This document shows positions 1 to 14,546 of a DNA stretch of 64,000 nucleotides, in pieces. The DNA lies in the NCBI RefSeq assembly GCF_001425485.1, contig NZ_LMQW01000002.1, positions 62,506 through 126,505 on the forward strand, read 5' to 3'. Made by a program: the position numbers and the translations under genes. The stretch is from Aureimonas sp. Leaf427 (GTDB lineage Bacteria; Pseudomonadota; Alphaproteobacteria; Rhizobiales; Rhizobiaceae). Numbering within the stretch: position 1 is the first letter of the stretch; every line of letters starts with the position of its first letter. The notes beneath the pieces were generated by a model. The model was not told the origin of the DNA. It was given only the letters and a program-made list of their open reading frames with translations, and ran no database searches.

Positions 1-447
1 GACGAGAAAGCCCGTGCTCGGCACGGCATAGGGCCGGTCCCGCGTCCGCAGGATCGCCTCGGCCTTGCGATGCACGTCGAACGGCAGGATCGTCATGCTG
101 CTCCCGAGCGGCCCCAGCCGCGCCTCGGCCTCCGCGGTCCAGCAGCGCCCGTCCGCGTCCGGGTCTTCGAGAGGTCCCGCCTTGCGGGCGAAGGGAAACA
201 GGATGCTTCCGGCGGCGCGGACGACGGGCCGGCTGATGAAGCCGGGATCGTCCAGCCATTCGCGCATCTGGCCGCCATGATTGACGAGGGCGAGATGCGT
301 CACGCGGCGCCCGGCATGCGCGCCGAAGCCGCTCGCATTGTTGAAGCGCACGACCCAATCCGCCGCATCGATCCGCCCGCCCTGATCCGCCATGTCGGGC
401 GCGTTGCCGACGATCGCGATGGATCGCGGCGTCAATCTCTCTGTCAT
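1..447 (-). CDS. GT29-like (sialyltransferase-family) glycosyltransferase, 3' end cut by window
   Basis: The frame stays open from an ATG at 447 to the left edge, giving 149 N-terminal residues. The start IAIVGN (residues 10-15), followed by IDAADWVVRFNN (26-37) and a GRRVTH stretch, matches the layout of the sialyl L motif of GT29 enzymes (VGN, then D-x-hydrophobic-x-R-x-N). AVPSTGFLV at the truncated end matches the S-motif core PSTG. GT29 enzymes transfer sialic acid or related nonulosonic sugars from a CMP donor; bacterial members are mostly uncharacterised and the substrate cannot be told. No signal peptide is seen, so the enzyme is probably cytoplasmic. It is divergent from the glycosyltransferase run that starts at 635. 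The fold call is fairly firm, the substrate unknown. Confidence 0.75.
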   Translation of the reverse strand, partial: MTERLTPRSIAIVGNAPDMADQGGRIDAADWVVRFNNASGFGAHAGRRVTHLALVNHGGQMREWLDDPGFISRPVVRAAGSILFPFARKAGPLEDPDADGRCWTAEAEARLGPLGSSMTILPFDVHRKAEAILRTRDRPYAVPSTGFLV

Positions 448-634
448 GTTGCTCCGCAATCGCCGTCCGCCCGTTTCATGGAGGTCCCCTACATGCCGCG
501 TGCGGGCACGGCGGCCAGGGAGGGGCGGCGGGCGATTTCGTCGCTGCGGGATGAAAACTCGTCAGATGGCCTTAGATCGACCGTCTCACCCCGCCGTGCA
601 GCCCCGCGCCCGGCCTGTTCCGGAAGGACCGTCC

Positions 635-1768
635 GTGCAAAAGCCGATCGCCTTTTTCGTCCACCACCAGGGACGCGGCCATGCCAACCGGACGATGGCG
701 CTCGCCTCGCAGTTTTCCGCCGACCGTCCGGTCTCCGTGCTCACGGCCGGGCCGCATCTCTTCGACGGCTTCCAGCGCGACATCGAGATCGTCACCCTGC
801 CGAACATGATCGGCGCGAGCGTGCCGACGCCCCGCCTCTATGCCGAGCCGACGCCGCAGGTCATGCACTGCGTGCCGCTCGGCCTTGCCGAGATGCGAAA
901 GACGATGCGCACCATTCTCGATCATCTCGACGACCGGCAGGTCGGCCTCTTCGTCGTCGACGTCTCCTCGGAAATCTCGCTGATGGCGCGCATCGCGAGC
1001 ACGCCCGCCGTCCAGATCCGCATGCATGGCGACCGGTCCGACATCGGCCATATCGGCTCCTACGAATCCTCCGTCGGCATGCTCGCCCCCTTCGACGAGC
1101 GCCTCGAGCAGGACGACTATCCCGCCCATCTGCGGGCGAAGACCTTCTACACCGGCGGCCTCTGCACGACGCGGGACGCCGTGCCGACGAAGGCGGAGGC
1201 GCGCGCCCGGCTGGGGCTCGATCCGGCGCGCGAGATCGTCGTCGCCATCACCGGCGGGGGCGGCAGCGGCACGCCCTATGCGCCCCTGACGGTGGCCGCG
1301 CGCGCGGCGCCCGAGGCGCTCTGGCTGACGCTCGGGCCGACCCATCGCGAGGGCCACGAGACCGACTTCTCCAACCTTATCGAACTCGGCTGGGTGCCGA
1401 ACGTCACCGATCATCTCGCCGCCGCCGACATCGTCGTCGCCTCGGCCGGCGACAACACGATCCACGAGGTCGCCCGGATCGGGCAGAAGCTGATCGTCAT
1501 GCCGGAATGGCGCTATTTCGGCGAGCAGACGCGCAAGGCCGAGGCGCTGGTCCGGCTCGGCGCCGCCGTCGGCGCGCCCGCTTGGCCCGGCGATCTCGCC
1601 GGCTGGCAGTCGCTCCTCGCAGAGGCCCGCGCGCTCGACGTCGAGATCGTGCGCACCCTCTTCGAGCCCGAGGCCGCCCGGCGGGGCGCGGCCTGGCTGG
1701 AGGCGCTGACCGACGAGATGTGGGCGGGCGCCGGCCACGCCGCGCCGGCGCTGAAGGTGGTCGGGTGA
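635..1768 (+). CDS. GT-B fold glycosyltransferase (MurG/GT28-like)
   Basis: The product is 377 residues from a GTG at 635, preceded by GGAAGGA at 621-627. An ATG at 551 in the same frame is the alternative start but has a weaker ribosome site. The N-terminus AFFVHHQGRGHANR is the glycine-rich acceptor-domain loop typical of MurG/UGT-like GT-B enzymes. The C-terminal half has AITGGGGSG, then GWVPNVTDHLAAADIVVASAGDNTIHEVARIG, the usual nucleotide-sugar-binding end (S-A-G then a conserved glutamate). It probably transfers a sugar from a nucleotide donor at the cytoplasmic face. It overlaps the next gene by 4 bp (GTGA), so the three glycosyltransferases form one translationally coupled operon. 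Donor and acceptor are unknown. Confidence 0.85.
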   Translation: MQKPIAFFVHHQGRGHANRTMALASQFSADRPVSVLTAGPHLFDGFQRDIEIVTLPNMIGASVPTPRLYAEPTPQVMHCVPLGLAEMRKTMRTILDHLDDRQVGLFVVDVSSEISLMARIASTPAVQIRMHGDRSDIGHIGSYESSVGMLAPFDERLEQDDYPAHLRAKTFYTGGLCTTRDAVPTKAEARARLGLDPAREIVVAITGGGGSGTPYAPLTVAARAAPEALWLTLGPTHREGHETDFSNLIELGWVPNVTDHLAAADIVVASAGDNTIHEVARIGQKLIVMPEWRYFGEQTRKAEALVRLGAAVGAPAWPGDLAGWQSLLAEARALDVEIVRTLFEPEAARRGAAWLEALTDEMWAGAGHAAPALKVVG

Positions 1769-2445
1769 GGGCTCAAACGTCGGATGCCACGCTCCTGACC
1801 GTTCTGAAGGGCGGCGGGCGCTATGACGGGCTCTGGGTGGAGCGGCTGGCGCGGGGCGCGCGCGCCTTCGCGCCGGCCTTCTCGCGCATTCTCTGCCTCA
1901 CCGATCTCGACCTGAAGATCGCCGGCGTCGAGACGGCGCCGCTGCGCCACGGCTGGCCGGGCTGGTGGTCGAAGATGGAGGCCTTCCGGCCGGGCCTCGC
2001 GGCCGGCCCGATCGTGCTTCTCGATCTCGACACGGTGTTCGCCGCCGACGCCTCGGCGCTGGCGACGCCCGGCCTTGCCGCGATGGAGGATCATTTCCAC
2101 GCCGGGCGCCTGTCCAGCGCGATCCTGCGCTGGCAGGGCGACGAGCTCGCCTTCCTCTACGAGGCCTTCGCCGCCGAGCCCGAGCGCTTCATGCAGCCCG
2201 GCTCCTGCGGCCCCGTGCCGAACGCGGTCCATGGCGATCAGGTCGTGATCGACCATCTCCTGCGCCAACGGGGCGTCGTGCCCGGCTTCGTCCAGCGCCT
2301 TCATCCCGGCCTTCTCGACTTCTACGATCCGGCCAAACGGTCCTATGGCCCGGTCGTGATCTTCATCGGCGACGCCAAGCCGGACGGGGCCGGCGAGCCC
2401 ATCCGCTCGCTCTGGACGGGGATGCCGGCCGATGCCGCCTTCTGA
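1765..2445 (+). CDS. Small DxD-type glycosyltransferase
   Basis: The product is 226 residues from a GTG that overlaps the previous stop as GTGA. The motif VLLDLDTVF near residue 83 is a classical DxD metal/nucleotide-sugar site of GT-A enzymes (GT8-like layout), followed by a short alpha/beta remainder. A run GDQVVIDHLL about 165 residues in is like the second conserved block of this group, and WSKMEAF resembles the donor-pocket region. No signal or membrane segment is seen. Position and overlap put it in the same operon as its neighbours, so it probably adds a sugar to the same glycan or glycoside. Specificity is unknown. Confidence 0.7.
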   Translation: MRAQTSDATLLTVLKGGGRYDGLWVERLARGARAFAPAFSRILCLTDLDLKIAGVETAPLRHGWPGWWSKMEAFRPGLAAGPIVLLDLDTVFAADASALATPGLAAMEDHFHAGRLSSAILRWQGDELAFLYEAFAAEPERFMQPGSCGPVPNAVHGDQVVIDHLLRQRGVVPGFVQRLHPGLLDFYDPAKRSYGPVVIFIGDAKPDGAGEPIRSLWTGMPADAAF

Positions 2446-3571
2446 GACCGGGCCGAATGTTCTCGGCCTGCCGGAGGTCGAGGCGATCGACATCTCCGGC
2501 GAGCCGTCGCGTCTCGCCGCATGCGCCCTCGTCGCCTGCGTTCCCGCGCAGAACGAGGAGGGCTGGATCGCCCGCTGCCTCGCCGCGCTCGATGCGGAGC
2601 TTTGGCCGGGCGAGGGCGTTCTCCTTCTCGCCAACGGGTGCACGGACGCGACCATCGCCATCGCGCGCGCCGTGACCGCCGGCTGGACGCGGCCCTTTCT
2701 CCTCGTCGACTGCCGCTGGCGGCCGGGCGAGGGCAGCGCGCCGCTCGCCCGGCGGATCACCTTCGACATGGCCGAGGCCCTCGCGCCGGATGCGCTGATC
2801 CTTTCCATCGACGGCGACACGGTGGTCCTGCCCGGGCTGCGCGCGGCCTATGCGGCCGAGTTCGAGCGCGGCTTCGATCTCGTCTGTGGGCGGATCGGCT
2901 TCCTGCCGGAGGAGGCGGCCCTCCTGCCGCACGCCGATCCCGGCAGCGAGGCCGTCATTCGCGACTATCGCGAGACGACGCGCGAGATCGCCGCGCTGCT
3001 CCGCCCCGATCCCGACAATCCCTGGCCCCATCACGGCAATATCGGCGGCGCCAATTTTGCGATGCGGGCGGCGGCCTACCGGATCGCCGGCCCGCTGCCG
3101 ATCCTGCCCTCGGGCGAGGACCGGGCCCTGCGTCGCAGGTTCGAGGCCCATGGCCGTCGCATCCGCTATTGCGACGGGGCACGGGTCGAGACCTCCTGCC
3201 GGCTGGAGGGGCGCGCCGCCGGCGGCCTGTCGGAGGAGCTGCGGCGCAACCGGACGCAAACCGATCCGCTGGTGGACGAGCTTCTGGAGCCCGCGGAGAC
3301 GCTTCTTCTGCGCTTGCGGGCCGAGGCGGCGTTCCTCGCCGCGCCGCTGGCCGAGGACCGCGCCCGCATCCTGACGAGGCTCGGCCTTGCCGCCGGGGAG
3401 GCCGCGCGGCTGGCCGAGACCGTCGGGGGGCTCGGCTGGCACGCGGCGGAGGAGGCGAGCCCCGCGCTCAGGCGGACGCGGCTTCGCCTCTCCGATCTCC
3501 GCCGCCTTCTGCCGGGGCTGCAGGCGGCGCGGGACGCCATTCGAGAAGCTCGATCCGGTAGTCCGGCGTAG
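2432..3571 (+). CDS. Family 2 glycosyltransferase
   Basis: The product is 379 residues. The GT2 core starts with VACVPAQNEEGWI (residues 34-46), then LLANGCTDAT, the DxD motif ILSIDGDTVV near residue 130, and a late acidic block LPSGEDRALRRRFEAHG (the ED of GT2 enzymes). The start overlaps the preceding gene by 14 bp. The C-terminal 100 residues are Arg/Leu/Glu-rich helices without membrane spans, so a processive synthase is unlikely. The last 104 bp overlap the 3' end of the deacetylase/methyltransferase gene on the other strand. It probably acts in the same glycosylation pathway. Confidence 0.88.
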   Translation: MPPSETGPNVLGLPEVEAIDISGEPSRLAACALVACVPAQNEEGWIARCLAALDAELWPGEGVLLLANGCTDATIAIARAVTAGWTRPFLLVDCRWRPGEGSAPLARRITFDMAEALAPDALILSIDGDTVVLPGLRAAYAAEFERGFDLVCGRIGFLPEEAALLPHADPGSEAVIRDYRETTREIAALLRPDPDNPWPHHGNIGGANFAMRAAAYRIAGPLPILPSGEDRALRRRFEAHGRRIRYCDGARVETSCRLEGRAAGGLSEELRRNRTQTDPLVDELLEPAETLLLRLRAEAAFLAAPLAEDRARILTRLGLAAGEAARLAETVGGLGWHAAEEASPALRRTRLRLSDLRRLLPGLQAARDAIREARSGSPA

Positions 3572-4847
3572 ACGAGACCCGGACCGTCTTCGCGCCCGCG
3601 CCGAGGCAGGCGGCGAAGACGTCGGCGGCCTCGCGCCCGCCGAGCGGCGTGTCGGTGGGGCCGAGATAGGAGACGAGGAGGAGATGGGCGCCCGGCACCA
3701 TCCGCGCCGAGAGGGCTCCCGCCAGCGCGGCAAGGCCCGCCTCGTTCAGGAAGTAGAGGACCTCCGAGAGAAGGACGAGGTCGAAGGCCCCTTCGGGCAG
3801 GGCGTCCGGCATGGCGCCCACCGCGAAGCGCACATCGGGCGACGTCGTCCGCGCCCGCGCGCGCTCCACGATGGCGGGCTCGCGGTCGACGCCGAGGATG
3901 GCCCCCGCGATGCCGGCTTCCACGAGGCCGCGCGACAGGAAACCCTCGCCGCAGCCGGCCTCCAGCGCGCTCGCATAGCGCCGGCCCTCCAGCATCGCGA
4001 GGCTGGCGGCGCGCTTGTCGGCCTCGTAGGCGGAGGAGCGGACATGCCAGGGATCGCCGTCGCCGGCATAGAGGCGCGCGAAATGCTCGGGGCCGGGCAC
4101 ATGGCCCGGCATGGCCTCCCAGCCGTAGCGCTCCAGCGGGTCCTCCTGCGCCGCGAGAAACCAGCCGGGCAGAACGAAGCCTTCGGGATCGTCCGACACG
4201 ACGAGGCCGAGCTGGCTGCGATGGCAGGCGATGGCGCCTCGCTTGCGCGCGATGTCCGTCGCGACCTTGAAGGCGACCAGCCCCTCCGAGCGGAAGGGCG
4301 CGTCCGGCGGCAGGCGACGCGACCAGACCTCGTAATGGAGAAGCCGCAAAGCCGGGCGAAGCGCGCGGACGCGGCGGGCCAGCTCGGCCGCCGCATGATG
4401 GTCGGGATGGGGATCGTCGGGATGGGGCGCGGCGAGCGCGGTGGCGCCGATCCGGTCGCAGAGTGCGGCGATGCGCGCGGCGGCCTCCTCGAAGCCGGGG
4501 CTGCGGCCGGAGGCGCCGTCCGGCAGCGAGAGGCGAAGCTCCTCCGCCCCCGCGCAGCCGAGCGCCGCCATGGCCGCGCGCTGCTCCTCCACCCGAAGCG
4601 CGGCGAGGGATGGCGGCGGCATCTGCCGGGAGGCGCGGTGCGAGCCCTCGCCATCGGTGAGGGCGACGAGGCCGATCCGCCGGCCGAGGCGCCCGGCGGC
4701 GAGGAGAAGCGCGGAGGCGCCGAGCGTCTCGTCGTCGGGATGGGGCGAGAGGACGACGAGGCCCCCGTCGCCGATCAGCCGCTCTGCGGGCGCGACGGGG
4801 GCGGCCGCCATCATCCCGTTCCAGAGGCCCAGCGTGCCCTCGCTCAT
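3468..4847 (-). CDS. Bifunctional PIG-L deacetylase / SAM-dependent methyltransferase (NodS-like)
   Basis: The 459-residue protein starts at an ATG that overlaps the previous stop (ATGA). The N-terminal domain is a zinc PIG-L/LmbE deacetylase: SPHPDDETLG gives H36 and D39, and HPDH (147-150) supplies the third ligand, as in MshB and BshB, which N-deacetylate GlcNAc conjugates. The C-terminal domain from about residue 255 opens with DPWHVRSSAYEADKR, a stretch typical of NodS-type N-methyltransferases, with motif I LEAGCGEG at 295-302 and a DLVLLSEVLYFL block. Fusing the two suggests that a sugar N-acetyl group is removed and the freed amine methylated. It is transcribed with the acyl-CoA-dehydrogenase-like gene and converges on the GT2 gene. 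Confidence 0.9.
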   Translation of the reverse strand: MSEGTLGLWNGMMAAAPVAPAERLIGDGGLVVLSPHPDDETLGASALLLAAGRLGRRIGLVALTDGEGSHRASRQMPPPSLAALRVEEQRAAMAALGCAGAEELRLSLPDGASGRSPGFEEAAARIAALCDRIGATALAAPHPDDPHPDHHAAAELARRVRALRPALRLLHYEVWSRRLPPDAPFRSEGLVAFKVATDIARKRGAIACHRSQLGLVVSDDPEGFVLPGWFLAAQEDPLERYGWEAMPGHVPGPEHFARLYAGDGDPWHVRSSAYEADKRAASLAMLEGRRYASALEAGCGEGFLSRGLVEAGIAGAILGVDREPAIVERARARTTSPDVRFAVGAMPDALPEGAFDLVLLSEVLYFLNEAGLAALAGALSARMVPGAHLLLVSYLGPTDTPLGGREAADVFAACLGAGAKTVRVSSTPDYRIELLEWRPAPPAAPAEGGGDRRGEAASA

Positions 4848-5983
4848 CGGGCCATGTCCGCGGCGAGAACGCGCCCGTGCTGGAGGAGAACCGCGTCGGG
4901 ATTGGCCTGCCGGATATAGACCGAGAGATCGCGCGTCAGCGCCTCCAGCGGATGGCTCCGGGCAAACGAGCCGAGGCCGAGGCCGCGCTCGGAAAGATCG
5001 ATCACCGTCATCGCCGCCTCCTCCGTCACGAGCCGCCCATAGGCCGAGAGCGCCACGGCCTTGGCGATGGCGGGGGCGTCGCCGATCGCGGCTCCCGTCT
5101 CGATGCGCGCGGCCGTGTCCTCGATCCAGAGCCGCGCCGTGCGGGCGGAGAGGATCGCCTGTCCGATCCGCGCCATCTGGAGCGGGTGGCCGTCGCGTCC
5201 GGTTCGGCCGAGCTCGCCGGCGAGCCCCCCGACGATCGCCTCGATCGCGCCCAGCTGGGCCGCCGCGCAGCGCCATATGCCGCCGACGAAGAAGGGCTCG
5301 CGCCGGTAGTCGTCGGGCGCGCCGATCCGGTCGGCTGGCGTCACCGGAACGCCGTCGAACGTGTAGGTGCCGGAGATCGAGCGCCGCATGCCCCGCATGT
5401 CGAAGCTCGACAGATCGACGCGGGCCTTCTCGCGCACGTCGAGAAGGAGGAGGTGCATCCGCCCGGTCTCGGCCTCCGTGATCGGCACCAGCGCGGTGTG
5501 GAGAAGCCCGGCGCCCGAGGCGTAGCGCTTGGCGCCGGACAGCGTGACGCCGCCGCGCGCGTCCTCGACGAGGCGCACGGGCTCAGGCCCCTCCGCGCCC
5601 CAGACGCCGAGAAGGCCGCCTTCGCCGAGCACGCGGAGAACGCGCGCCTGTTGCGCTGCCGTGCCGTAGAGGGCGATCAGCTGGAGCGCGTTGACATGGC
5701 CCTCGAAGAGGCGCGCGAGGCTGAGCTCGATCCCGCCGAGCGTCACCAGTGCGTCGAAGACCGCGCGCCAGCCGGGCTCGAAGCGATAGCCGCCGTCCGC
5801 TGCGGGCGTCGCGAAGGCCGAGAGGAGCCCGTGCCGGGCGAGCACCTCGACGAAGGGCGCCGGGTCGTCCCGCCCCGCCTCGCGCTCGCGCACGGCCAGC
5901 AGGTCGGCCCTCACGGCATCCGGCAGGAGTTCGGCCTCGGCGGGCTCGCGGAGGGATCGGAGGGAGGGCGGGGCAAGGCTCAT
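4844..5983 (-). CDS. Acyl-CoA dehydrogenase family protein
   Basis: The product is 379 residues from an ATG at 5983 with GGAGA 9 bp upstream; longer in-frame starts exist but lack such a site. It has the acyl-CoA dehydrogenase layout: a helical N-terminal domain, a central beta domain (LLGVWGAEGPEPVRL, LSGAKRYASGAG, VSF-like ISGTYTFDGVPV) and a C-terminal four-helix bundle ending in RQANPDAVLLQHGR. The sequence is divergent, and I cannot place the usual catalytic glutamate with confidence, so it may act on a carrier-bound or sugar-linked acyl group, or as a flavin oxidase/hydroxylase. The 4-bp overlap with the deacetylase/methyltransferase gene implies a shared pathway. Confidence 0.8.
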   Translation of the reverse strand: MSLAPPSLRSLREPAEAELLPDAVRADLLAVREREAGRDDPAPFVEVLARHGLLSAFATPAADGGYRFEPGWRAVFDALVTLGGIELSLARLFEGHVNALQLIALYGTAAQQARVLRVLGEGGLLGVWGAEGPEPVRLVEDARGGVTLSGAKRYASGAGLLHTALVPITEAETGRMHLLLLDVREKARVDLSSFDMRGMRRSISGTYTFDGVPVTPADRIGAPDDYRREPFFVGGIWRCAAAQLGAIEAIVGGLAGELGRTGRDGHPLQMARIGQAILSARTARLWIEDTAARIETGAAIGDAPAIAKAVALSAYGRLVTEEAAMTVIDLSERGLGLGSFARSHPLEALTRDLSVYIRQANPDAVLLQHGRVLAADMAR

Positions 5984-6508: not shown

Positions 6509-7159
6509 ATGGCACCGACGAAGACAGTTTCGACCCGAGTGGGCGGCACGACGCCCAAGGGTCTGCAGCGAAAGACGGAATTGGCCGATCAGGCCGTGCA
6601 CAGCCTTGCATTGCAGAGCTATGCGCAGACGTCGCTTCGCGATATAGCGGCCGCCGCCGACATCAACATAGGTCGCCTGCATTACTACTTCGACGACAAG
6701 ACCGACCTCATCATCTACGCGGTCAAGCACTTCAAGCAGACCTTCGTGGCCGATCTCTCCGGCGGCATCGACAAGCAGCGATCGCTCGAAGCCGGTGTCC
6801 AGACGCTGGTCCAGAGGCTCACCGAAGCGCCGGAAATGCACCGGTTCTGGTACGATCTGCGCAATCAGGCCCTGTTCGAGCCGAAATATCGCAGCGTCGT
6901 TGCCGAGATCGAGCGCGAGCTGAAGGAGATGACGGCCGCTCTCCTCGTCCTGATCGACCCCGAGCGCGACGTCGGCCCTCATCTCGAACTAGCCTATGTC
7001 GTTCTCGACGGGCTCTTCTTCCGCGGGCTCCAGTGCCTTCTCTACGGCGAGACGAACGTCCCGGAGCGCCTGACGGCGGCGCTTCTCAGCTCCGCCGGGC
7101 ATTTCCAGGAGTTCGGCAGCCTCTCGCCCTGGTCGTCGAACCCGCTGCCCCTTCGCTGA
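6509..7159 (+). CDS. TetR/AcrR family transcriptional regulator
   Basis: The product is 216 residues, with a purine-rich ribosome site (AAGAAGAGAA) just before the ATG. The N-terminal helix-turn-helix reads TSLRDIAAAADINIGRLHYYFDDKTDLI (about residues 41-68), the standard TetR signature with the YYF recognition helix. The ligand domain is helical and unassigned. It is divergent from the acyl-CoA-dehydrogenase/deacetylase operon and convergent with ugpC. The likely targets are its own promoter and the divergent operon, so it may be the switch for the left-end tailoring cluster. Confidence 0.88.
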   Translation: MAPTKTVSTRVGGTTPKGLQRKTELADQAVHSLALQSYAQTSLRDIAAAADINIGRLHYYFDDKTDLIIYAVKHFKQTFVADLSGGIDKQRSLEAGVQTLVQRLTEAPEMHRFWYDLRNQALFEPKYRSVVAEIERELKEMTAALLVLIDPERDVGPHLELAYVVLDGLFFRGLQCLLYGETNVPERLTAALLSSAGHFQEFGSLSPWSSNPLPLR

Positions 7160-7223: not shown

Positions 7224-8309
7224 TCAGGCGGCGATGCGCCGGCCGTCGGCTCCGAAGGCGTGAAGGGCGGCCGACGGCGCGAAGATGCGCGCGCGCTGGC
7301 CGATCTCCAGCGCCGTCCGGCCGGGAACGCGGAAGACGAGCGGGCTCGCGCCGCCCTCCGGCGTTCCGTGCACGTAGCTCTCCGCGCCCGCCAGCTCGAT
7401 CGCGCCGACGGTCACGTCAGCCGAAAAGCCTTCCCTTCCGTCGCCGAGCGTGAAGGCCTCGGGCCCCTCGCCGAGCGAGAAGGCCTCGGGGCGTACGCCG
7501 AGCGTGAAGGGCCCGTCGCCCGCCGGCGCGAAACCGGCGAGCCGCCCGCCGCCGGGAAGCGCCGAGCCGCCGCGCGCGGCGGGAAGAAGGTTCATGCCGG
7601 GCGAGCCGATGAAGCCGGCGACGAAGAGGCTGGCGGGCTTCTCGTAGAGATCGATCGGCCGCCCCACCTGCTCCACGAGGCCCGCATTGAGGACGACGAG
7701 CCGGTCGGCGAGGGTCATGGCCTCCATCTGGTCGTGCGTGACGTAGACGCTCGTCGTCGCGAGCGCCCTCTGCAGGCGGCGGATCTCGATGCGCATCTGG
7801 ACGCGCAGCTTGGCGTCGAGATTGGAGAGCGGCTCGTCGAAGAGGAAGGCGGCGGGCTCGCGCACGATGGCGCGGCCCATGGCGACGCGCTGGCGCTGGC
7901 CGCCGGAGAGCTGGCCCGGCCTGCGGTCGAGAAAGCCCGCGATCTCCAGCGAGGCGGCCGCCTGCGCCACGCGCCGCTCGATCTCGGCGCCCTTCATGCC
8001 GCGGTTCTTCAGCCCGTAGGAGAGGTTCTGGCGCACCGTCATGTGGGGATAGAGCGCATAGTTCTGGAACACCATGGCGATGTCCCGGTCGGCCGGCTCG
8101 AGGTCGTTGACGACGCGCCCGCCGATCTCGATCGTGCCGGAGGTGACGGTCTCCAGCCCCGCGATCATGCGCAGCAGGGTCGACTTTCCGCAGCCGGACG
8201 GGCCGACGAGCACGAGAAGCTCGCCATCGGCGATCTCCAGCGAGATGCCGCGCACGGCCTCGGTCTCGCCGTAGCGCTTGCGGACGTCCTTGAGGGTGAT
8301 GGAGGCCAT
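7224..8309 (-). CDS. ugpC: Glycerol-3-phosphate ABC importer, ATP-binding protein
   Basis: The 361-residue ATPase is of the MalK/UgpC group: Walker [10 protein letters not shown] (36-44), Q-loop [11 protein letters not shown], signature LSGGQ (134-138), Walker B FLFDEP (155-160), H-loop YVTHDQ, then a TOBE regulatory domain. It is the last gene of the ugpBAEC operon, 7 bp after ugpE, and energises import of sn-glycerol-3-phosphate or its diesters at the inner membrane. The TOBE domain holds an unusual run of three 9-residue repeats (268-294). MsmK-type ATPases look alike, but the UgpA, UgpE and UgpB neighbours settle the call. Confidence 0.93.
7428..7508 (-). repeat. Three 27-bp tandem repeats inside ugpC
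   Basis: The stretch encodes [18 protein letters not shown] and FTLGDGREG in a row, three diverged copies of a 9-residue unit at residues 268-294. The first unit is the conserved LGVRPE of the TOBE domain; the others look like duplications that keep the frame. Confidence 0.8.
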
Positions 8310-8316
8310 GTCTCTC

Positions 8317-9165
8317 TTACTTTTCCGACTCGACGAGGCCCTTCACGAACCATCGCTGCATCAGGACCACGACCAGCACCGGCGGCAGGATCGCGAAGAT
8401 CGCCGTCACCATCACGAGCGGCCAGGGCGTCTCGGCATCGGCGAAGGAGACCATCTTGCGCAGCGCGATGACGATCGTGTTCATCTGGTTGTCGTTGGTG
8501 ATGAGGAGCGGCCAGAGATACTGCGTCCAGCCGTAGATGAAGAGGATGACGAAGAGCGCGGCGATGTTGGTCTTGGAGAGCGGGATCAGGATGTCGCGCA
8601 GGAAGCGCATCGGCCCCGCCGCGTCGATCCGCGCGGCCTCCACCAGCTCGGCCGGAATCGTCATGAAGAACTGGCGGAAGAGGAAGGTCGCCGTGGCGGA
8701 GGCCATCAGCGGCAGGGTCAGGCCCGTATAGGTGTCGATGAGGCCGAGATCGACCATCACCTTGTAGGTCGGCAGGATGCGCACCTCGACCGGCAGCATC
8801 AGCGTGACGAAGATGATCCAGAAGGCGACCATCCGGCCGGGAAAGCGGAAATAGACGATGGCAAAGGCCGAGAGGATCGAGATCGCGATCTTGCCGACCG
8901 CGATGGCGGTGGCGACGATCGCCGTGTTCCACAGGAGCCGCGCGATCGAGACGCCGCCGATCTGCGAGGCGCCGGAGAAGAGGGCCGTTCCGTAGTTCTC
9001 CAGGAACTCGCCGCCGGGCGTCAGCGGCAAGGGCGGGGAGAGGATGGTGCGCAGCGTCTGCGTGGAGGCGACGAACGTGTAGTAGATCGGGAAGGCGACG
9101 ATCAGGATGCCGAGCACGAGCACGAGATGGGCGAGCGGCCGGGCGAAGGGGCGATGCTCGACCAT
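8317..9165 (-). CDS. ugpE: Glycerol-3-phosphate ABC importer, permease UgpE
   Basis: The 282-residue inner-membrane permease follows E. coli UgpE closely over its length (for example [44 protein letters not shown], and the C-terminal [12 protein letters not shown]). It has six predicted membrane helices and the EAA loop [25 protein letters not shown], which docks on UgpC. The start overlaps the ugpA stop by one base (TGATG), so translation is coupled. With UgpA it forms the channel for glycerol-3-phosphate. Confidence 0.95.
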
Positions 9166-10052
9166 CAGCTGTAATGCACCTTGCGCTCGACGAAGCGGAA
9201 CTGGACGGCGGTGAGCGCGATCACGATCGCCATCAGGATCACCGACTGGGCGGCCGAGGAGCCGAGGTCGAGATTGACGAAACCGTCGTTGAACACCTTG
9301 TAGACCAGCGTCTCCGTCGCCTTGGCGGGCCCGCCGCCCGTCACCGCGTGGATGATGCCGAACGTGTCGAAGAAGGCGTAGACGCAGTTCACGACGAGGA
9401 GGAAGAAGCTCGTCGGCGCGATCAGCGGGAAGACGATCGTCCAGAAGCGCTTGGGCCCCCGCGCGCCGTCGATGGCGGCCGCCTCGATCAGCGAGCGCGG
9501 CACCGACTGGAGCGCCGCGACGAAGAAGAGGAAATTGTAGCTGATCTGCTTCCAGGCCGCCGCCATCACGACGAGGACCATGGCCTGGTCCCCGTCGAGC
9601 AGCGGGTCCCAGTTGTAGCCGGTGGCGCGCAGCATATAGGCGAAGGTGCCCATGGTGGGCGAGAACATGAAGAGCCAGAGCAGGCCCGCCACCGCCGGCG
9701 CCACCGCATAGGGCCAGATGAGGAGCGTGCGGTAGAAGCCCTTGCCGCGCGTGACCGTCTCCGCCGCCGAGGCGAGGAAGAGCGACAGGCTCATGGCGAG
9801 CGCGGCGGTGGCGAAGGAGAAGACCAGCGTCACCTTCAGCGCGTGGAGATAGTTCGGGTCCGCCAGCACCGCCTGGAAATTGGCGAGGCCGACGAACTCG
9901 GTGGAGAGCCCGAAGGCGTCCTCGCGCAGCGTCGACTGATAGAGGGCCTGGGCGCTCGGCCAGTAGAAGAAGACGAGCGTCACCGCGATCTGGGGCGCGA
10001 GCAGCAGATAGGGCAGGACCTTGCCGGGAAAGACGACGCGGGGAGAGGCCAT
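9165..10052 (-). CDS. ugpA: Glycerol-3-phosphate ABC importer, permease UgpA
   Basis: The product is 295 residues, matching the usual UgpA length. It has an N-terminal membrane helix ([20 protein letters not shown]), five further helices and the EAA loop [25 protein letters not shown]. The late segment [27 protein letters not shown] is characteristic of UgpA/MalF-type partners. It lies 23 bp after ugpB and overlaps ugpE by one base. It pairs with UgpE in the inner membrane. Confidence 0.94.
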
Positions 10053-10075
10053 CGGGGTCTAGCGGTGATCCGCCT

Positions 10076-11377
10076 TCAGCGCACGGCGGCGGCGATGGCG
10101 GCGTCGGCGCGTTCCTTGGCCTTGGAAAGCGCGGTCTTGGCGTCCTGGCTGCCGTTCAGCATGGCCTCGAACTCCTCGTTCTCGATGTCGCGCACCTGCG
10201 GCAGGTTGACGAGGCGCACGCCCTTGGAGTTCTCGGTCGGCGCCTTGCCCGTCATCTGGGTGATCGGCGTCTCGCGGCCGGGATTCTTCTCGTAGAAGCC
10301 GCTCGCCTTGGTGGCCTCGTAGGCCTCCAGCGTGACCGGCAGATAGCCGGACTTCTGGTGCAGGCGCGACTGGATCTCGGGCTTGGACAGGAAGTTGAAG
10401 AACTCCGCGACGCCCTTGTACTCCGCGTCCGTCTTGCCGCCGAAGACCCAGAGGCTGGCGCCGCCGGGGATCGTGTTCTGCGGCGCGCCGTTGCCCTTCG
10501 TGTCGTAGGGCAGCTGGCCGATGCCGTAGTTCATGCCGGACTTCACGACGTCGCCGAGACCGCCGGAGGATTCGGTGAGGATCGCGCATTCGCCGGAGAG
10601 GAAGAGCTGCTTGGCCTCGGCCGTGCGGCCGCCGTAGCGGAAGACGCCCTCCTTGGCGAGATCGGCGATCGCCTGGAAATGCTCGACATAGATCGGCTGG
10701 TCGATCGCCAGCTCCACCTTGCCGCCGGCAAGGCCGTTCTCGCCGCTGGCATAGGAGACGTTGTTCCAGGCCGCGAAGTTCTCGAGGTGAATCCAGGTCA
10801 GCCAGGTGGAGGTGTAGCCGCAGGGCGCCGCCCCGCTCTCCTTGATCTTGCGCGCGGCGGCGAAGACCTCGTCCCAGGTCTTGGGCGGCTGGTTCGCGTC
10901 GAGCCCCGCCTTCTGGAAGGCGTCCTTGTTGTAGTAGAGGATCGGCGAGGAGGAGTTGTAGGGGAAGGACAGCATCGTGCCGTCCGGCTTGGAATAGTAG
11001 TTGACGATGCCCGGCAGGTATTTCGACTTGTCGAACGTGTAGCCGCCCTGTTCCAGGATCTCGGCCACGGGCTTGATCGCGCCCTCCGCGCCCATCATCA
11101 CGCCGGTGCCGACGTCGAAGACCTGGATGATGGCCGGCGTCTGCTTGGCGCGGAAGGCGGCGATGCCGGCGTTCAGCGTCTCGGGATAGGTGCCCTTGTA
11201 GACCGGCTTGACGACGTAGTCGCCCTGGCCGGCGTTGAACTCCTTGGCGAGCTCCTCGACCACGTCGTTGTTGGCGCCGTTCATGGCATGCCACCACTGA
11301 AGCTCGGTCGCGGCATGGGCGGAGCCGGCGAAGGCCGTGCCGAAAGCGAGGGCGCAAAGGATCGAGCGTGCGGACAT
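10076..11377 (-). CDS. ugpB: Glycerol-3-phosphate-binding periplasmic protein
   Basis: The product is 433 residues with a Sec signal peptide cleaved after about residue 22 (GSAHA|ATEL). The mature start ELQWWHAMNGANNDVVEELAKEFN is typical of UgpB and the family 1 solute-binding proteins, and the length fits UgpB. The start has a strong GGAGGAA site. It is the first gene of ugpBAEC; high expression of the binder relative to the permeases would be expected. In many bacteria ugp is a phosphate-starvation operon, but no convincing Pho box was seen here. Confidence 0.93.
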   Translation of the reverse strand: MSARSILCALAFGTAFAGSAHAATELQWWHAMNGANNDVVEELAKEFNAGQGDYVVKPVYKGTYPETLNAGIAAFRAKQTPAIIQVFDVGTGVMMGAEGAIKPVAEILEQGGYTFDKSKYLPGIVNYYSKPDGTMLSFPYNSSSPILYYNKDAFQKAGLDANQPPKTWDEVFAAARKIKESGAAPCGYTSTWLTWIHLENFAAWNNVSYASGENGLAGGKVELAIDQPIYVEHFQAIADLAKEGVFRYGGRTAEAKQLFLSGECAILTESSGGLGDVVKSGMNYGIGQLPYDTKGNGAPQNTIPGGASLWVFGGKTDAEYKGVAEFFNFLSKPEIQSRLHQKSGYLPVTLEAYEATKASGFYEKNPGRETPITQMTGKAPTENSKGVRLVNLPQVRDIENEEFEAMLNGSQDAKTALSKAKERADAAIAAAVR

Positions 11378-11634
11378 GGGTGTTCCTCCCGAAGGCGTCG
11401 GCGAAGGGGTCTTTCCCTTCCGTGGGCTTGCGCCTCTAGCCGATGCTCATATCAATTTCACGACGGTCTTCGCCGCCTGCTGCCGGCCGCAGGGAGCCAT
11501 CCGAACGGGCCGGCGTCAACCGTTTCGATGGGATACCTTAGCATTAGAGCCGGCATCGTCTGCGCCAGGCTCTGCGGCCGGACAGGCGGCGGCAGGGCCT
11601 CCCGCCCCACCGCCGCTGCCTGGCTATGGCCGGC

Positions 11635-12645
11635 TCAGTTGGCGGACTTGCCGCAGGTCGTCTCGGCGTTTTCCGGGGTGCAGACCTCGGTGCCGGTGAT
11701 GATCATCGGCGGCAGGGTCTCCTTCTTCGTCAGCTTGTCCAGCGCCATGATCGTCTCGTAGCCCATGTCGTAGGGCCGCTGGCCGACGTTGAAATGGCTG
11801 AGGCCCTTGGCGAGCAGCGGCAGCTGCGGCCCGAAATTGTCGCCGAAGACGACGACGAGCTCTTTGGCGTCGAGCCGCGCCCGGAAGGGCTCCATGGCCT
11901 GCGTATAGGCCTGCGGGGCATATTGCGCCCAGCCGCCGACGGCGACGAGCGCGTCGAGCTCGGGATTGCTGGTCATGACGTCGCGGACCTGCTGGGCGGC
12001 GAGCGCGATGTCGTCATTGTTGTAGACCGGGCAGCCGGCGGGCTCGGTCCAGCCGTTCGTGTCATTCAGCGCGCCCGCCGGCTTGTCCTTGGTCGTTCCC
12101 GCCAGCGTGTCGCGAATGCCCTGGATGCGGCCGTTGAGGTTTTCCGAGGCCGGGGCGCCCGACTGGATGCAGACCGAGCCGCCCTTCTTCCCGGCCTCCA
12201 GAACCTTCTCGGCCAGGACCTTGCCGAACTCGTAATTGTCGGTGCCGATATAGGTGGCGCGCAGCTTGGCGTCCTCGGGCAGGACGTCGGTGTCGAAGGT
12301 GACGACGGGAATGCCCGCATCGTTCGCCATCTTCAGGATGCGCGCCATGGCCTTGGGGTTTCCGGCGGAGATGCCGATCCCGTCGACGCCGCGCGTGATG
12401 ACGTCCTGGGCGAGCTGCACTTGCTTCGCCTCGTCGTATTCGGTCGGGCCGATATAGGTGCAGGTGACGTCGCCGAGCTTGGCGGCGGCGGCCTTGCAGC
12501 CGGCGTCGATCGGCGGGCTGAAGGCATTGTTCAGGACCTTGAAGACGAGGGCGAACTCGCGGTCGGCGGCCTGTACGGGCGCGGCGAGGAGGCCGCCGGC
12601 AAGGCATGCGGCGGCGGCGGTCATCAGGCGGTGTTTCATCGGCAT
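11635..12645 (-). CDS. Sugar ABC importer, periplasmic binding protein (RbsB-like)
   Basis: The start chosen is the ATG at 12645 (MPMKHR), with GGGAGAAA upstream, giving 336 residues; a longer frame reaches 12708 but has no ribosome site. A signal peptide ends near APVQA|ADR. The body is a type-I periplasmic fold (ALVFKVLNNAFSPPIDAGCKAAA, GIGISAGNP, VVTFDTDV, ATYIGTDNYEFGKVLAE), as in ribose, allose and fructose binders. Several cysteines (VTCTY, SVCIQS, AGCPVY, EVCTPE, ETTCGK) suggest disulfides. It is the third gene of an ATPase-permease-binder operon. The sugar is unknown. Confidence 0.88.
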   Translation of the reverse strand: MPMKHRLMTAAAACLAGGLLAAPVQAADREFALVFKVLNNAFSPPIDAGCKAAAAKLGDVTCTYIGPTEYDEAKQVQLAQDVITRGVDGIGISAGNPKAMARILKMANDAGIPVVTFDTDVLPEDAKLRATYIGTDNYEFGKVLAEKVLEAGKKGGSVCIQSGAPASENLNGRIQGIRDTLAGTTKDKPAGALNDTNGWTEPAGCPVYNNDDIALAAQQVRDVMTSNPELDALVAVGGWAQYAPQAYTQAMEPFRARLDAKELVVVFGDNFGPQLPLLAKGLSHFNVGQRPYDMGYETIMALDKLTKKETLPPMIITGTEVCTPENAETTCGKSAN

Positions 12646-12709
12646 GGTCGTTTCTCCCGTTGTGGTTCGTGATCCGCGGGGTCGTTCGAATGCCCCGGAC
12701 GGTTTCACC

Positions 12710-12744
12710 GCCGCCGCCCACCGATGTCAGGCCCGGGCGGCGGC
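12710..12744 (-). promoter_or_regulatory. Intercistronic hairpin before the sugar-binding-protein gene
   Basis: GCCGCCGCCC (12710-12719) and GGGCGGCGGC (12735-12744) form a perfect 10-bp stem with a 15-nt loop between the permease stop and the binder start. Such hairpins often protect mRNA ends and set a higher level of the binding protein than of the membrane parts. Confidence 0.5.
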
Positions 12745-12767
12745 AAGTCCCTGAAAAGCTGCATGTC

Positions 12768-13787
12768 TCACACCTTCGACGAACGCACCCGCTCCAGAAG
12801 CACGGCGCCGAGGATGAAGCTGCCGACGAAGAAGCCCTGCCAGAACGGGTTCACGCCGGCGATGAGAAGCGAATTGCGGATGACCTCGACGAGCACGGCG
12901 CCGATCGCCGCGCCGATGGCCGTGCCGAAGCCGCCGACGAGGCTGGCGCCGCCGATGACGGTGGCGGCGATCACCTGAAGCTCGTAGCCGGTGCCGATCG
13001 CATTGGTGACGGCGCCGAGCCAGCCGACGAGGAAGATGGCCGCCACCGCCGCCATGAGGCCGCTGAAGGCATAGGTCGAGACCTTGATCAGCTCCACCGG
13101 AATGCCGCAGAGCCGCGCGGCGTGCTCGTTGCCGCCGACGGCGTAGACGTAGCGGCCCCATCGCGTCGTGGTGAGCAGGAGATGCAGGACGACGATGCCC
13201 GCGATCAGCGCGAAGATGACGTTGGGCAGGCCGAAGGTCTTGCCGCCGCCGAGCGAAAGAAGCTGCTCGGTCCAGGTGCCGAACTCGTAGAAGACCGTGT
13301 TCTGGCTGATGACGAGGGCGAGGCTGCGCCCCATGGAGAGCGTGGCGAGCGTCACCACGAAGGGCGGCAGCTTCAGATAGGCGATCACCGCGCCGTTGAA
13401 GGCGCCGCAGAGCGCGCCGAGAAGGAGGATGGCGGGGATGGCGACCGGCAGGGGCCAGCCGGCGACGAGCACGATGCCGAGCGCGATGCCGCAGAGGCCC
13501 AGGATCGAGCCGACCGAGATGTCGATGCCGCCGCTGATGATGACCGGCGTCATGCCGAGCGCCATGATGCCGATGAAGCAGGCGTTCTGGAGAACGTTGA
13601 GGAGATTGCCGGAGGTCGCGAATTTCGGCGAGACCAGCGTGACGAGAAGGCCGAGCACGAGGATCGCGACCGCGATCCAGGCCTCCTGCGTCGCCCCCAG
13701 CCGCCCGAAGAGCGAGCGGCGGGGCGTGCTGGTGAGATCGATGGCCATGCCATGAGGATCGGAGGCGGGATCGGAGGCGGGTGACAT
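12768..13787 (-). CDS. Sugar ABC importer, permease (RbsC/FrcC-like)
   Basis: The product is 339 residues with 8-10 hydrophobic helices of the branched RbsC family. Typical stretches are GIMALGMTPVIISGGIDISVGSILGL, FVVTLATLSMGRSLALVIS, and AIGTGYELQVIAATVIGGASLVGG. It lies 15 bp after the ATPase gene and precedes the binder. It forms a homodimeric channel in the inner membrane for a monosaccharide or polyol. The substrate is not evident from sequence. Confidence 0.9.
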   Translation of the reverse strand: MSPASDPASDPHGMAIDLTSTPRRSLFGRLGATQEAWIAVAILVLGLLVTLVSPKFATSGNLLNVLQNACFIGIMALGMTPVIISGGIDISVGSILGLCGIALGIVLVAGWPLPVAIPAILLLGALCGAFNGAVIAYLKLPPFVVTLATLSMGRSLALVISQNTVFYEFGTWTEQLLSLGGGKTFGLPNVIFALIAGIVVLHLLLTTTRWGRYVYAVGGNEHAARLCGIPVELIKVSTYAFSGLMAAVAAIFLVGWLGAVTNAIGTGYELQVIAATVIGGASLVGGFGTAIGAAIGAVLVEVIRNSLLIAGVNPFWQGFFVGSFILGAVLLERVRSSKV

Positions 13788-13802
13788 CGGGCGGTCGATC
13801 CT

Positions 13803-14546
13803 TCAGGCCGAGGCGATGGCGCCCGTGATGAGGCCGGTGACCTCCTCCGGGCTGGACTGGCCGATGGGCTTGTCGGCCACTTTCCGCCCGCGGCGCATGA
13901 CGACGACGCGGTCGCAGACGTCGAAGACGTCGGGCATGCGGTGGCTGATCAGGATGACCGCGAGCCCCTGGTCGCGCATGCGCCGGATCAGCGCGAGCAC
14001 CTCGGCGACCTGCCGCACGCTGATCGCGGCCGTCGGCTCGTCCATGAGCACGATTTTGGACTTGGCGAGCCGCGTGCGGGCGATGGCGACGGCCTGGCGC
14101 TGCCCGCCCGACATGCGCGCCACGAGATCGGCCGGGCGCGTCTCCGACTTCAGCTCGCGGAAGAGCTCGTCCGCCCGCGCGTTCATCCGCTTCTTGTCGA
14201 CGATGCTGAACGGTCCCCAGCGGCGCATCAGCTCCCGCCCGAGAAAGACGTTCGCCGCCGCCGTCAGGTTGTTGCAGAGCGCCAGGTCCTGGTAGACGAC
14301 CTCGATCCCGTGGCGCCGGGCATCGGAGGGGCCGGTCAGCTGAAGCGCCTTGCCCTCCAGCGTGTAGGTTCCGGCGGTCGGCAGGAAGTTGCCGGCGATT
14401 GTCTTGACCAGCGTCGACTTGCCCGCGCCGTTGTCGCCCATCAGCCCCAGGACTTCGCCCGCGTGAATGTCGAGGCTCACCTCGTTCAGCGCGCGGATCG
14501 CACCGAAATCCTTCACGATGCCGTCCAGTCGCGCAAGAACCGCCAT
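13803..14546 (-). CDS. Sugar ABC importer, single-domain ATPase (FrcA-like)
   Basis: The product is 247 residues, a single ATPase domain as in FrcA rather than the double RbsA. Walker A GDNGAGKST, signature MSGGQRQAVAIART, Walker B KIVLMDEPTAA, and H-loop LISHRM are all present. It is first in the operon (ATPase, permease, binder), an order that differs from the usual frcBCA. It hydrolyses ATP to drive the permease. The leader at 14547-14765 (219 bp) holds its promoter and the end of the LysR gene. Confidence 0.9.
   Translation of the reverse strand: MAVLARLDGIVKDFGAIRALNEVSLDIHAGEVLGLMGDNGAGKSTLVKTIAGNFLPTAGTYTLEGKALQLTGPSDARRHGIEVVYQDLALCNNLTAAANVFLGRELMRRWGPFSIVDKKRMNARADELFRELKSETRPADLVARMSGGQRQAVAIARTRLAKSKIVLMDEPTAAISVRQVAEVLALIRRMRDQGLAVILISHRMPDVFDVCDRVVVMRRGRKVADKPIGQSSPEEVTGLITGAIASA

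Follow-up and report, generated by a model that had tools for sequence, protein, structure and literature searches.

A four-function gene unit of a PIG-L deacetylase, a NodS-like methyltransferase, a GT2 glycosyltransferase and an acyl-CoA-dehydrogenase-fold protein in Aureimonas and other bacteria

Introduction

The early steps of mycothiol and bacillithiol synthesis (MshA-MshB and BshA-BshB) use a glycosyltransferase (GT) and then a PIG-L de-N-acetylase to make a small intracellular glucosamine glycoside, with MshA and BshA both belonging to family GT4. Among flavoenzymes, DszC, MsuC, SfnB and the nitrososynthases KijD3 and DnmZ share the class name class D. Here, we analyse a gene cluster at the start of a 64,000-nucleotide stretch of DNA from Aureimonas sp. 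Leaf427 (G000:C2:62506-126505, in a genome of 5.4 Mb), referred to as the window, in which a PIG-L de-N-acetylase fused to a NodS-like methyltransferase (MT; the fusion is protein J) is encoded next to a GT2 glycosyltransferase (I) and a protein with the acyl-CoA dehydrogenase (ACAD) fold (K).

A preliminary description of the window grouped six genes into one tailoring cluster, made up of a GT29-like enzyme, three overlapping glycosyltransferases, the fusion and an ACAD-like gene. All six (F, G, H, I, J and K) are present in window 1-5983, with F truncated by the window edge, and the tight same-strand overlaps are as described (G/H, 4 bp; H/I, 14 bp; J/K, 7 bp). Homologues keep the same arrangement in relatives, and the arrangement is thus not a product of chance. 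The four glycosyltransferases as a unit did not survive the comparison: the general unit consists of four functions, namely K, PIG-L, the NodS-like MT and the soluble GT2 I, and is both smaller and more widespread than the set first described.

Linkage and distribution of the core unit

With K as the query, matches were found in 14/61 genomes of the family and 33/347 genomes of the order (E 1e-8) and in 6/289 genomes of the class (E 1e-10), and a K profile at E 1e-25 found 21/299 genomes of the phylum; G000, the genome of the window, is included in these counts, and some of the matches are weak. There are 64 distinct K matches, of which 61 were taken with their flanks, the exceptions being the match in the window itself and two weak matches (G435 and the second hit of G483). 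Linkage was counted in the 57 of these 61 sampled loci where K scores above 95 bits, with neighbours scored within 3 kb of K; the remainder hold other ACAD-like proteins with K at 95 bits or below (L118, L121 and L122) or a C-terminal piece of K only (L120). A set of 25 named loci, the window's own counted, was treated separately, and the named L011, L010, L009 and L008, which are the same contigs as L105-L108, were not counted again.

Within 3 kb of K, the 57 sampled loci have MT in 55, PIG-L in 49, I in 46 and all four functions in 42, with MT (55/55) and PIG-L (49/49) always on the strand of K and the two fused in four loci. The named loci give a similar picture, where K is found in 24, MT in 22, PIG-L in 22, GT2 in 21, all four in 20 and the fusion in five, and where 21/22 MT and 22/22 PIG-L genes lie on the strand of K. 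Even in 11 phylum-level loci with K at just 101-144 bits (L148-L158), MT is present in 11, PIG-L in 10 (one weak, at 35 bits) and I in eight. The orientation of I is more variable: among loci in which I and MT are both present, I lies opposite the strand of K in 7/46 sampled and 10/21 named ones. The preliminary description had proposed asking whether the genes always travel together in other genomes; the four-function core does so in 42/57 loci, and the other glycosyltransferases are optional.

PIG-L and MT form a single protein in Aureimonas and its relatives. All or most parts of the unit, by annotation or profile, are carried by Sulfitobacter, Paracoccus, Novosphingobium, Sphingobium, Komagataeibacter, Bradyrhizobium, Nostoc and Kitasatospora, and further by Deinococcus radiophilus, Acinetobacter haemolyticus, A. 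towneri, Pandoraea, Cupriavidus and two Comamonas. Roseomonas and D. radiodurans carry it without the GT2. The genes are not always adjacent: a helicase gene sits between MT and PIG-L in D. radiodurans, and PIG-L lies on the far side of a catalase gene in Cupriavidus. MT is missing from two sampled loci (L079 and L160), and PIG-L is not near K in eight; in four of these genomes a homologue is encoded at another place, in one case 12 kb away. K also occurs alone, with the other core genes not nearby, on a 67-kb plasmid of Methylobacterium sp. FF17 (L124:9899-11065). A search of a phage collection with the Bradyrhizobium K as the query gave no match.

The flavoenzyme K

The preliminary description called K an ACAD-like enzyme, which holds for the fold and not for the catalytic residue. 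The predicted structure of K has the ACAD fold, with a Z of about 34 to ACADs and monooxygenases alike, and its Pfam scores are 17.8 and 16.9 bits, both under the cut-offs. The position of the ACAD catalytic Glu (YEGT) is occupied by Ala in 24 and Pro in 15 of the aligned K proteins, so that 39/39 are without it, and control proteins from the same genome in this alignment carry Glu in 5/6 ACADs and Asp in 3/3 SfnBs. The aligned relatives share invariant E94-G95-H96 and R358 Q359...D363 residues, and 19 more distant relatives retain the RQ motif or a TQ variant, with no Glu at the catalytic place by eye. K as a true acyl-CoA dehydrogenase was rejected because this Glu is missing.

A profile of the 39 K proteins was searched against the PDB, where the nearest relatives are MsuC (1.1e-20), DszC (4.4e-20) and TdsC (4e-19); the entries 5z8t and 5gj7 (4e-19) are classed under acyl-CoA dehydrogenase type 2, and 5z8t is titled a monooxygenase in the Foldseek listing. 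In sequence, K is therefore nearer to monooxygenases than to dehydrogenases by this search, with a modest margin. Foldseek with an AlphaFold model of K (mean pLDDT 91.8) also places monooxygenases first, and the highest template modelling (TM) score among the 50 rows listed is 0.80, for KijD3 and 3mxl. K falls below the NCBIfam equivalog cut-offs of SfnB (40.6 versus 430.9 bits) and DszC (35.9 versus 850 bits). From its sequence, we read K as a class-D-monooxygenase-like branch; a class D flavin monooxygenase would use reduced flavin and O2 with a reductase partner. The desaturation or N-acylation entertained in the preliminary description is unlikely, since K is without the ACAD Glu and its nearest solved profile relatives are flavin monooxygenases.

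Some other features of K and its relatives are of note. The K proteins of D. radiophilus (L023:5710-7959) and D. radiodurans (L123:8543-10882) are extended at the N terminus by almost 400 residues; the added part appears glycoside-hydrolase-barrel-like by eye and has no Pfam match in D. radiophilus. In L120 (G671, around 8614-10187), PIG-L and methyltransferase genes lie beside a stretch matching just the last ~80 residues of K, a decayed or diverged copy. The genome of the window also encodes five SfnB proteins above the NCBIfam cut-off (on G000:C23, C50 and C2), four of them forming two tandem pairs, and is rich in sulfur scavenging by annotation.

The deacetylase-methyltransferase J and the glycosyltransferase I

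The fusion recognised in the preliminary description is borne out, as both domains of J are over their Pfam cut-offs, the PIG-L domain with 75.7 bits (cut-off 28.2) and the methyltransferase domain with 40.3 bits for PF05401 (cut-off 24). The metal site of the PIG-L domain, H-x-D-D...H-x-D-H, is invariant in 24/24 proteins (H37, D39, D40, H148, D150 and H151). Among solved structures, the domain is nearest to TT1542, diacetylchitobiose deacetylase and BshB1, and its PDB relatives also include MshB. For the methyltransferase domain, the best PDB match of its profile is 4isc (1.1e-46), which we take to be a Pseudomonas syringae structure and which is listed only as a methyltransferase, followed by NodS (3ofj, 3e-29). 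At 41.5 bits, this domain is under the NodS equivalog cut-off of 300 bits, in agreement with the earlier statement that the cluster is not the Nod pathway itself.

A redox buffer resembling mycothiol or bacillithiol, or an antibiotic-like small molecule, could be built with the same logic of glycosyltransferase and deacetylase. The top NCBIfam score of the PIG-L domain is to BshB1, the nitrososynthases KijD3 and 3mxl have the highest TM score to K among the 50 rows listed, and catalases lie close to some cores (see below). The BshB1 score is 51.4 bits, however, under an equivalog cut-off of 182.5 bits, a cysteine ligase is not recognised among 12 scanned proteins of the cluster and its edge, and the spread of the unit across many genera is like that of a stress module and unlike that of a strain-specific antibiotic cluster. 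We consider such a product improbable.

The GT2 I has invariant R107, D127, D129, E229, D230, S255 and R257, with conserved DxD and ED motifs, and no membrane segment is seen by eye. Its best PDB structure match is the fucosyltransferase WrtF, with a TM score of about 0.44 of the query; this match is uninformative, and assignment of the donor sugar from structure was dropped. The I and J genes are convergent, with 104 bp in common at their 3′ ends (window 2432-4850). Convergent and overlapping 3′ ends of GT2 and methyltransferase genes recur in unrelated genomes (L006, L023 and L026) and may have a regulatory role.

An optional glycosyltransferase block

Left of the window, the cluster goes on for ~6 kb (L003), with genes A, B, C, D and E; neither this extension nor the stress-gene context described below is in the preliminary description. 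Together with B, a fusion resembling sucrose-phosphate synthase and phosphatase, the other glycosyltransferases make up an optional block that is separable from the core. Much of it accompanies the core in L008-L011, L013, L015 and L016, and the Aureimonas loci L006, L007 and L012 carry K, J and I with no other glycosyltransferase in the flanks that were fetched and searched. L014 has the block and J, and no K in the stretch fetched exceeds 95 bits. All parts except H are found in G852, from another family of the class (L159), where G is cut by the edge of the stretch, and in G795, from the same phylum only (L154), B, G and A occur together with MT and K. Eight sampled loci from two families (L087, L088, L090-L093, L095 and L098) show three further glycosyltransferases next to the core, distantly C-like, G-like and A- or I-like, as do Novosphingobium and Sphingobium. 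Overall, a block with B adjoins the core in 6/57 sampled loci, and B lies within 10 kb of K in 7/59 genomes.

This wealth of glycosyltransferases, with up to eight such or GT-like genes beside the core here, could be taken to mean that the cluster acts on a lipid-linked or surface glycan, with the glycosyltransferases extending it, J deacetylating and methylating it and K altering an acyl chain. Envelope loci are commonly GT-rich, and the many glycosyltransferases in the seven relatives with much of the block, together with the three at the core in the eight sampled loci, Novosphingobium and Sphingobium, are in line with this view. Against it stand the small share of loci in which B and its block adjoin the core, the three Aureimonas loci in which the block is not near the core, and the lack of the ACAD base in K. 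Furthermore, no flippase, polymerase, acyltransferase or prenyl-phosphate transferase is found among the 12 scanned proteins of this genome, and nothing points to the lipid-linked oligosaccharide that the preliminary description had offered as one product. On balance, a lipid-linked or surface glycan seems an unlikely product.

Stress-gene neighbourhood

Catalase genes, counted as full-length heme and Mn-catalases only, lie within 10 kb of K in 11/46 genomes, compared with 0/49 around OtsA anchors in the same genome set. Shorter catalase-like hits and an OtsA fragment of G509 were left out, and the 46 K anchors include one incomplete K, that of G671. About 0.4 cases are expected under uniform placement, and the Fisher p of 0.0002 overstates the number of independent events because 7/11 cases come from one genus, the others being from three other families. 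On plasmids, a catalase is annotated near the core in 7/19 regions (2/19 have no gene annotation), which are those of Sulfitobacter, Novosphingobium, Paracoccus, Sphingobium, two Acinetobacter and Cupriavidus.

Trehalose genes accompany the core in certain lineages. Two Comamonas plasmids have the order otsA-K-PIG-L-MT-GT-otsB with genes overlapping or almost abutting, G842 has otsB-otsA-K-PIG-L-MT-I all on one strand, and two Acinetobacter plasmids have a catalase beside the core and otsAB beginning ~2 kb past the GT gene. OtsA is encoded somewhere in 53/59 core-bearing genomes, a figure that stands without matched core-free genomes as a comparison. The Acinetobacter plasmids (L161 and L162), one from a human blood culture and one from a chicken carcass, are mobilizable and also carry DUF421 and DUF2171, and here the core is a portable stress island.

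Work on Acinetobacter provides some context for these neighbours. A study of an A. baumannii ATCC 17978 dksA mutant reports lowered otsA, otsB and katE (PMC10325922). In the matched portion of a second paper, otsA of A. oleivorans is covered, with no deacetylase or glycosyl- term (PMC5658608), and part of a desiccation transcriptome lists other acyl-CoA dehydrogenases as down (PMC13130816).

Another account of the neighbourhood is that K, J and I serve separate stress functions in one mobile stress island and take part in no single pathway. The genes around them are indeed unrelated stress genes (catalase, DUF892, LigD, Ku, OtsAB and the PA2169 family), partly on plasmids, and core genes have been lost or relocated in some genomes (L079, L086, L123 and L124). 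Set against this, the K-PIG-L-MT order is kept on one strand in most loci, the genes overlap, PIG-L and MT can be fused, and the set persists in Proteobacteria, Deinococcota, Cyanobacteria and Actinomycetota as the island neighbours change. We give the idea of unconnected functions little credence.

Proposed pathway

We instead favour a reading in which the core makes a small amino-glycoside inside the cell that serves survival of drying and oxidative stress, and we judge the case for it to be evenly balanced. It is drawn from the absence of recognised export, polymerisation and acylation enzymes, the soluble glycosyltransferase, the PIG-L/MT fusion and the compatible-solute and catalase neighbours. 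The conserved unit, its enzyme families, their catalytic motifs and the stress-gene neighbours are observed, and the order of the steps, their chemistry, the product and its protective role are our inference. First, I would move an N-acetylhexosamine, most simply N-acetylglucosamine, onto a small acceptor. PIG-L, with its family assignment and metal site, would then remove the acetyl group in the manner of MshB, BshB and diacetylchitobiose deacetylase, and the NodS-like domain would methylate the freed amine; the fusion of PIG-L and MT argues for these two steps being consecutive. Finally, K would be given reduced flavin by a reductase encoded elsewhere and would oxygenate the product, perhaps at the nitrogen as amino-sugar nitrososynthases do, and would not dehydrogenate an acyl chain. 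Where the second block is present, as in this genome and some of its relatives, its sucrose-phosphate synthase/phosphatase-like fusion and glycosyltransferases may make the acceptor or assemble a larger glycoside; in Comamonas, OtsA and OtsB would take this place.

A more specific version can be framed, in which an amino-glycoside associated with trehalose or sucrose undergoes de-N-acetylation, N-methylation and N-oxygenation, the last by a new branch of the ACAD fold. The resulting N-methyl or N-oxy amino sugar would protect cells against drying and peroxide stress, in bacteria as far apart as Deinococcus and Acinetobacter. We put this forward tentatively, as a possibility that is less likely to be right than wrong.

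Several observations weigh against these proposals. Four genomes of genus g257 have K, MT and GT2 and no PIG-L anywhere in the genome at E 1e-8, so de-N-acetylation is not indispensable; the pathway tolerates the loss of the PIG-L step or draws an amine from elsewhere. For K, most of the 19 more distant relatives carry a Glu or Asp three residues past the lost position, and the first entry named only acyl-CoA dehydrogenase appears in the profile search at 7.6e-17. The nitrososynthases appear there at 2e-14 to 2e-13 with several ACADs ranked above them, and a slower structural aligner gives a Z of 33-35 for monooxygenases and dehydrogenases alike, so that the fold cannot separate the two; N-oxygenation by K in particular is weakly supported. 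No flavin reductase is recognised in the cluster. The genome of the window has no catalase near the cluster, the catalase neighbours found elsewhere are concentrated in one genus, and OtsA lies within 10 kb of K in 3/59 sampled genomes, one of these being a contig-end fragment. A trehalose link was thus rejected as a general rule and is treated as a lineage feature.

Regulation does not add to the case either. An EcfG site (GGAAC-N16-18-CGTT, in a strict and a loose version) is not enriched upstream of K, with strict sites in 1/51 versus 7/742 for other genes and loose sites in 5/51 versus 52/742, and the numbers upstream of I (strict 1/35, loose 6/35) are too few for any conclusion. The window has no strict site. 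A one-mismatch EcfG-like site can be seen by eye upstream of K, but EcfG control was rejected given the lack of enrichment.

Deinococcus and Acinetobacter are known for desiccation or radiation tolerance, and the module is found in plasmid and chromosomal stress neighbourhoods that include both genera. Should its product prove to be a protective metabolite, it would represent an overlooked class of natural stress protectants and a new flavoenzyme branch, and work on the dry survival of such bacteria would gain a directly testable gene set.

Gene inventory and surroundings

The features of the cluster are collected in Table 1. The full-length F protein has 209 amino acids (aa), and relatives of G in other loci have 73-79% identity. 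As for the glycosyltransferase identities given in the preliminary description, F, G and I reach their Pfam cut-offs; H has no match in a Pfam scan and nothing better than E 0.73 in a PDB search, and is possibly a glycosyltransferase on the sole basis of a DLDT motif spotted by eye. In the NCBIfam scan, in which F was edge-truncated, all six window proteins stay below the cut-offs. In the PDB, B is related to the sucrose-phosphatase 1s2o and to 2r60, an entry with the annotation group 1 glycosyl transferase. J has its closest named relatives in Aureimonas endophytica (70% identity) and in other Aureimonas. Further along the minus strand of the window, positions 7224-14546 hold ABC transporter gene sets that look sugar-importer-like by eye, adjoined by a TetR-family regulator at 6509-7159, with no evident link to the core.

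Table 1. Genes of the cluster, with window positions or placement in L003 (HAD, haloacid dehalogenase; SAM, S-adenosylmethionine)
Gene	Assignment	Position	Strand	Remarks
K	ACAD-fold, class D flavin-monooxygenase-like	4844..5983	-	First gene of the core operon
J	PIG-L de-N-acetylase + NodS-family SAM methyltransferase fusion	3468..4850	-	PIG-L match 4371-4754; PF05401 match 3738-4055
I	Soluble GT-A-fold GT2 glycosyltransferase	2432..3571	+	PF00535 23.3 bits, exactly equal to the cut-off; convergent with J
H	Uncharacterised, DLDT motif, possibly GT-A glycosyltransferase	1765..2445	+	Optional second block
G	GT28 (MurG-like) glycosyltransferase	635..1768	+	PF04101 31.2 bits, cut-off 22; optional second block
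F	GT29-like	1..444	-	PF00777 29.3 bits for the whole protein, cut-off 23; edge-cut, continues to L003:17336; optional second block
A	GT2	Left of window, L003
B	692-aa fusion, sucrose-phosphate-synthase-like GT4 + sucrose-phosphatase (HAD)	Left of window, L003		PF05116 205 bits
C, D	GT4	Left of window, L003
E	GT2-like by eye	Left of window, L003		No Pfam match

Comparison with known systems

The core can be compared with mycothiol and bacillithiol synthesis, with which it shares a glycosyltransferase and a PIG-L enzyme with a conserved metal site that counts MshB and BshB1 among its PDB relatives. It differs in that its glycosyltransferase is a GT2, in that a NodS-like methyltransferase and a flavoenzyme are added, in the score of its PIG-L domain below the BshB1 cut-off, and in having no cysteine ligase among the scanned cluster proteins. 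Nod factor tailoring by NodB and NodS likewise combines de-N-acetylation with a methyltransferase of the NodS family, to which the 3ofj match relates J; here, however, PIG-L stands in place of NodB, the NodS equivalog score is only 41.5 of 300, and neither NodA nor NodC is found among the 12 cluster and edge proteins, which is as far as the scan of the genome went. K resembles the class D flavin monooxygenases in having an ACAD fold without the dehydrogenase Glu, as tested for SfnB, and in its top PDB profile and Foldseek matches, and differs from them in lying far under the SfnB and DszC cut-offs, in its own E-G-H and R-Q...D motifs and in having no reductase partner found. The neighbour B fuses, by family, the activities of sucrose-phosphate synthase and sucrose-phosphatase, and OtsA and OtsB adjoin the core in Comamonas and Acinetobacter; on the counts given above, these sucrose and trehalose enzymes are neighbours and not core members.

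The proteins of the module have generic names only in the annotations seen, and the gene set is not described in open-licence PubMed Central full texts, among the matches listed, in keeping with the view of the preliminary description that this is a candidate for an undescribed system. Each enzyme family is already known, and it is their combination that did not turn up in the literature searched.

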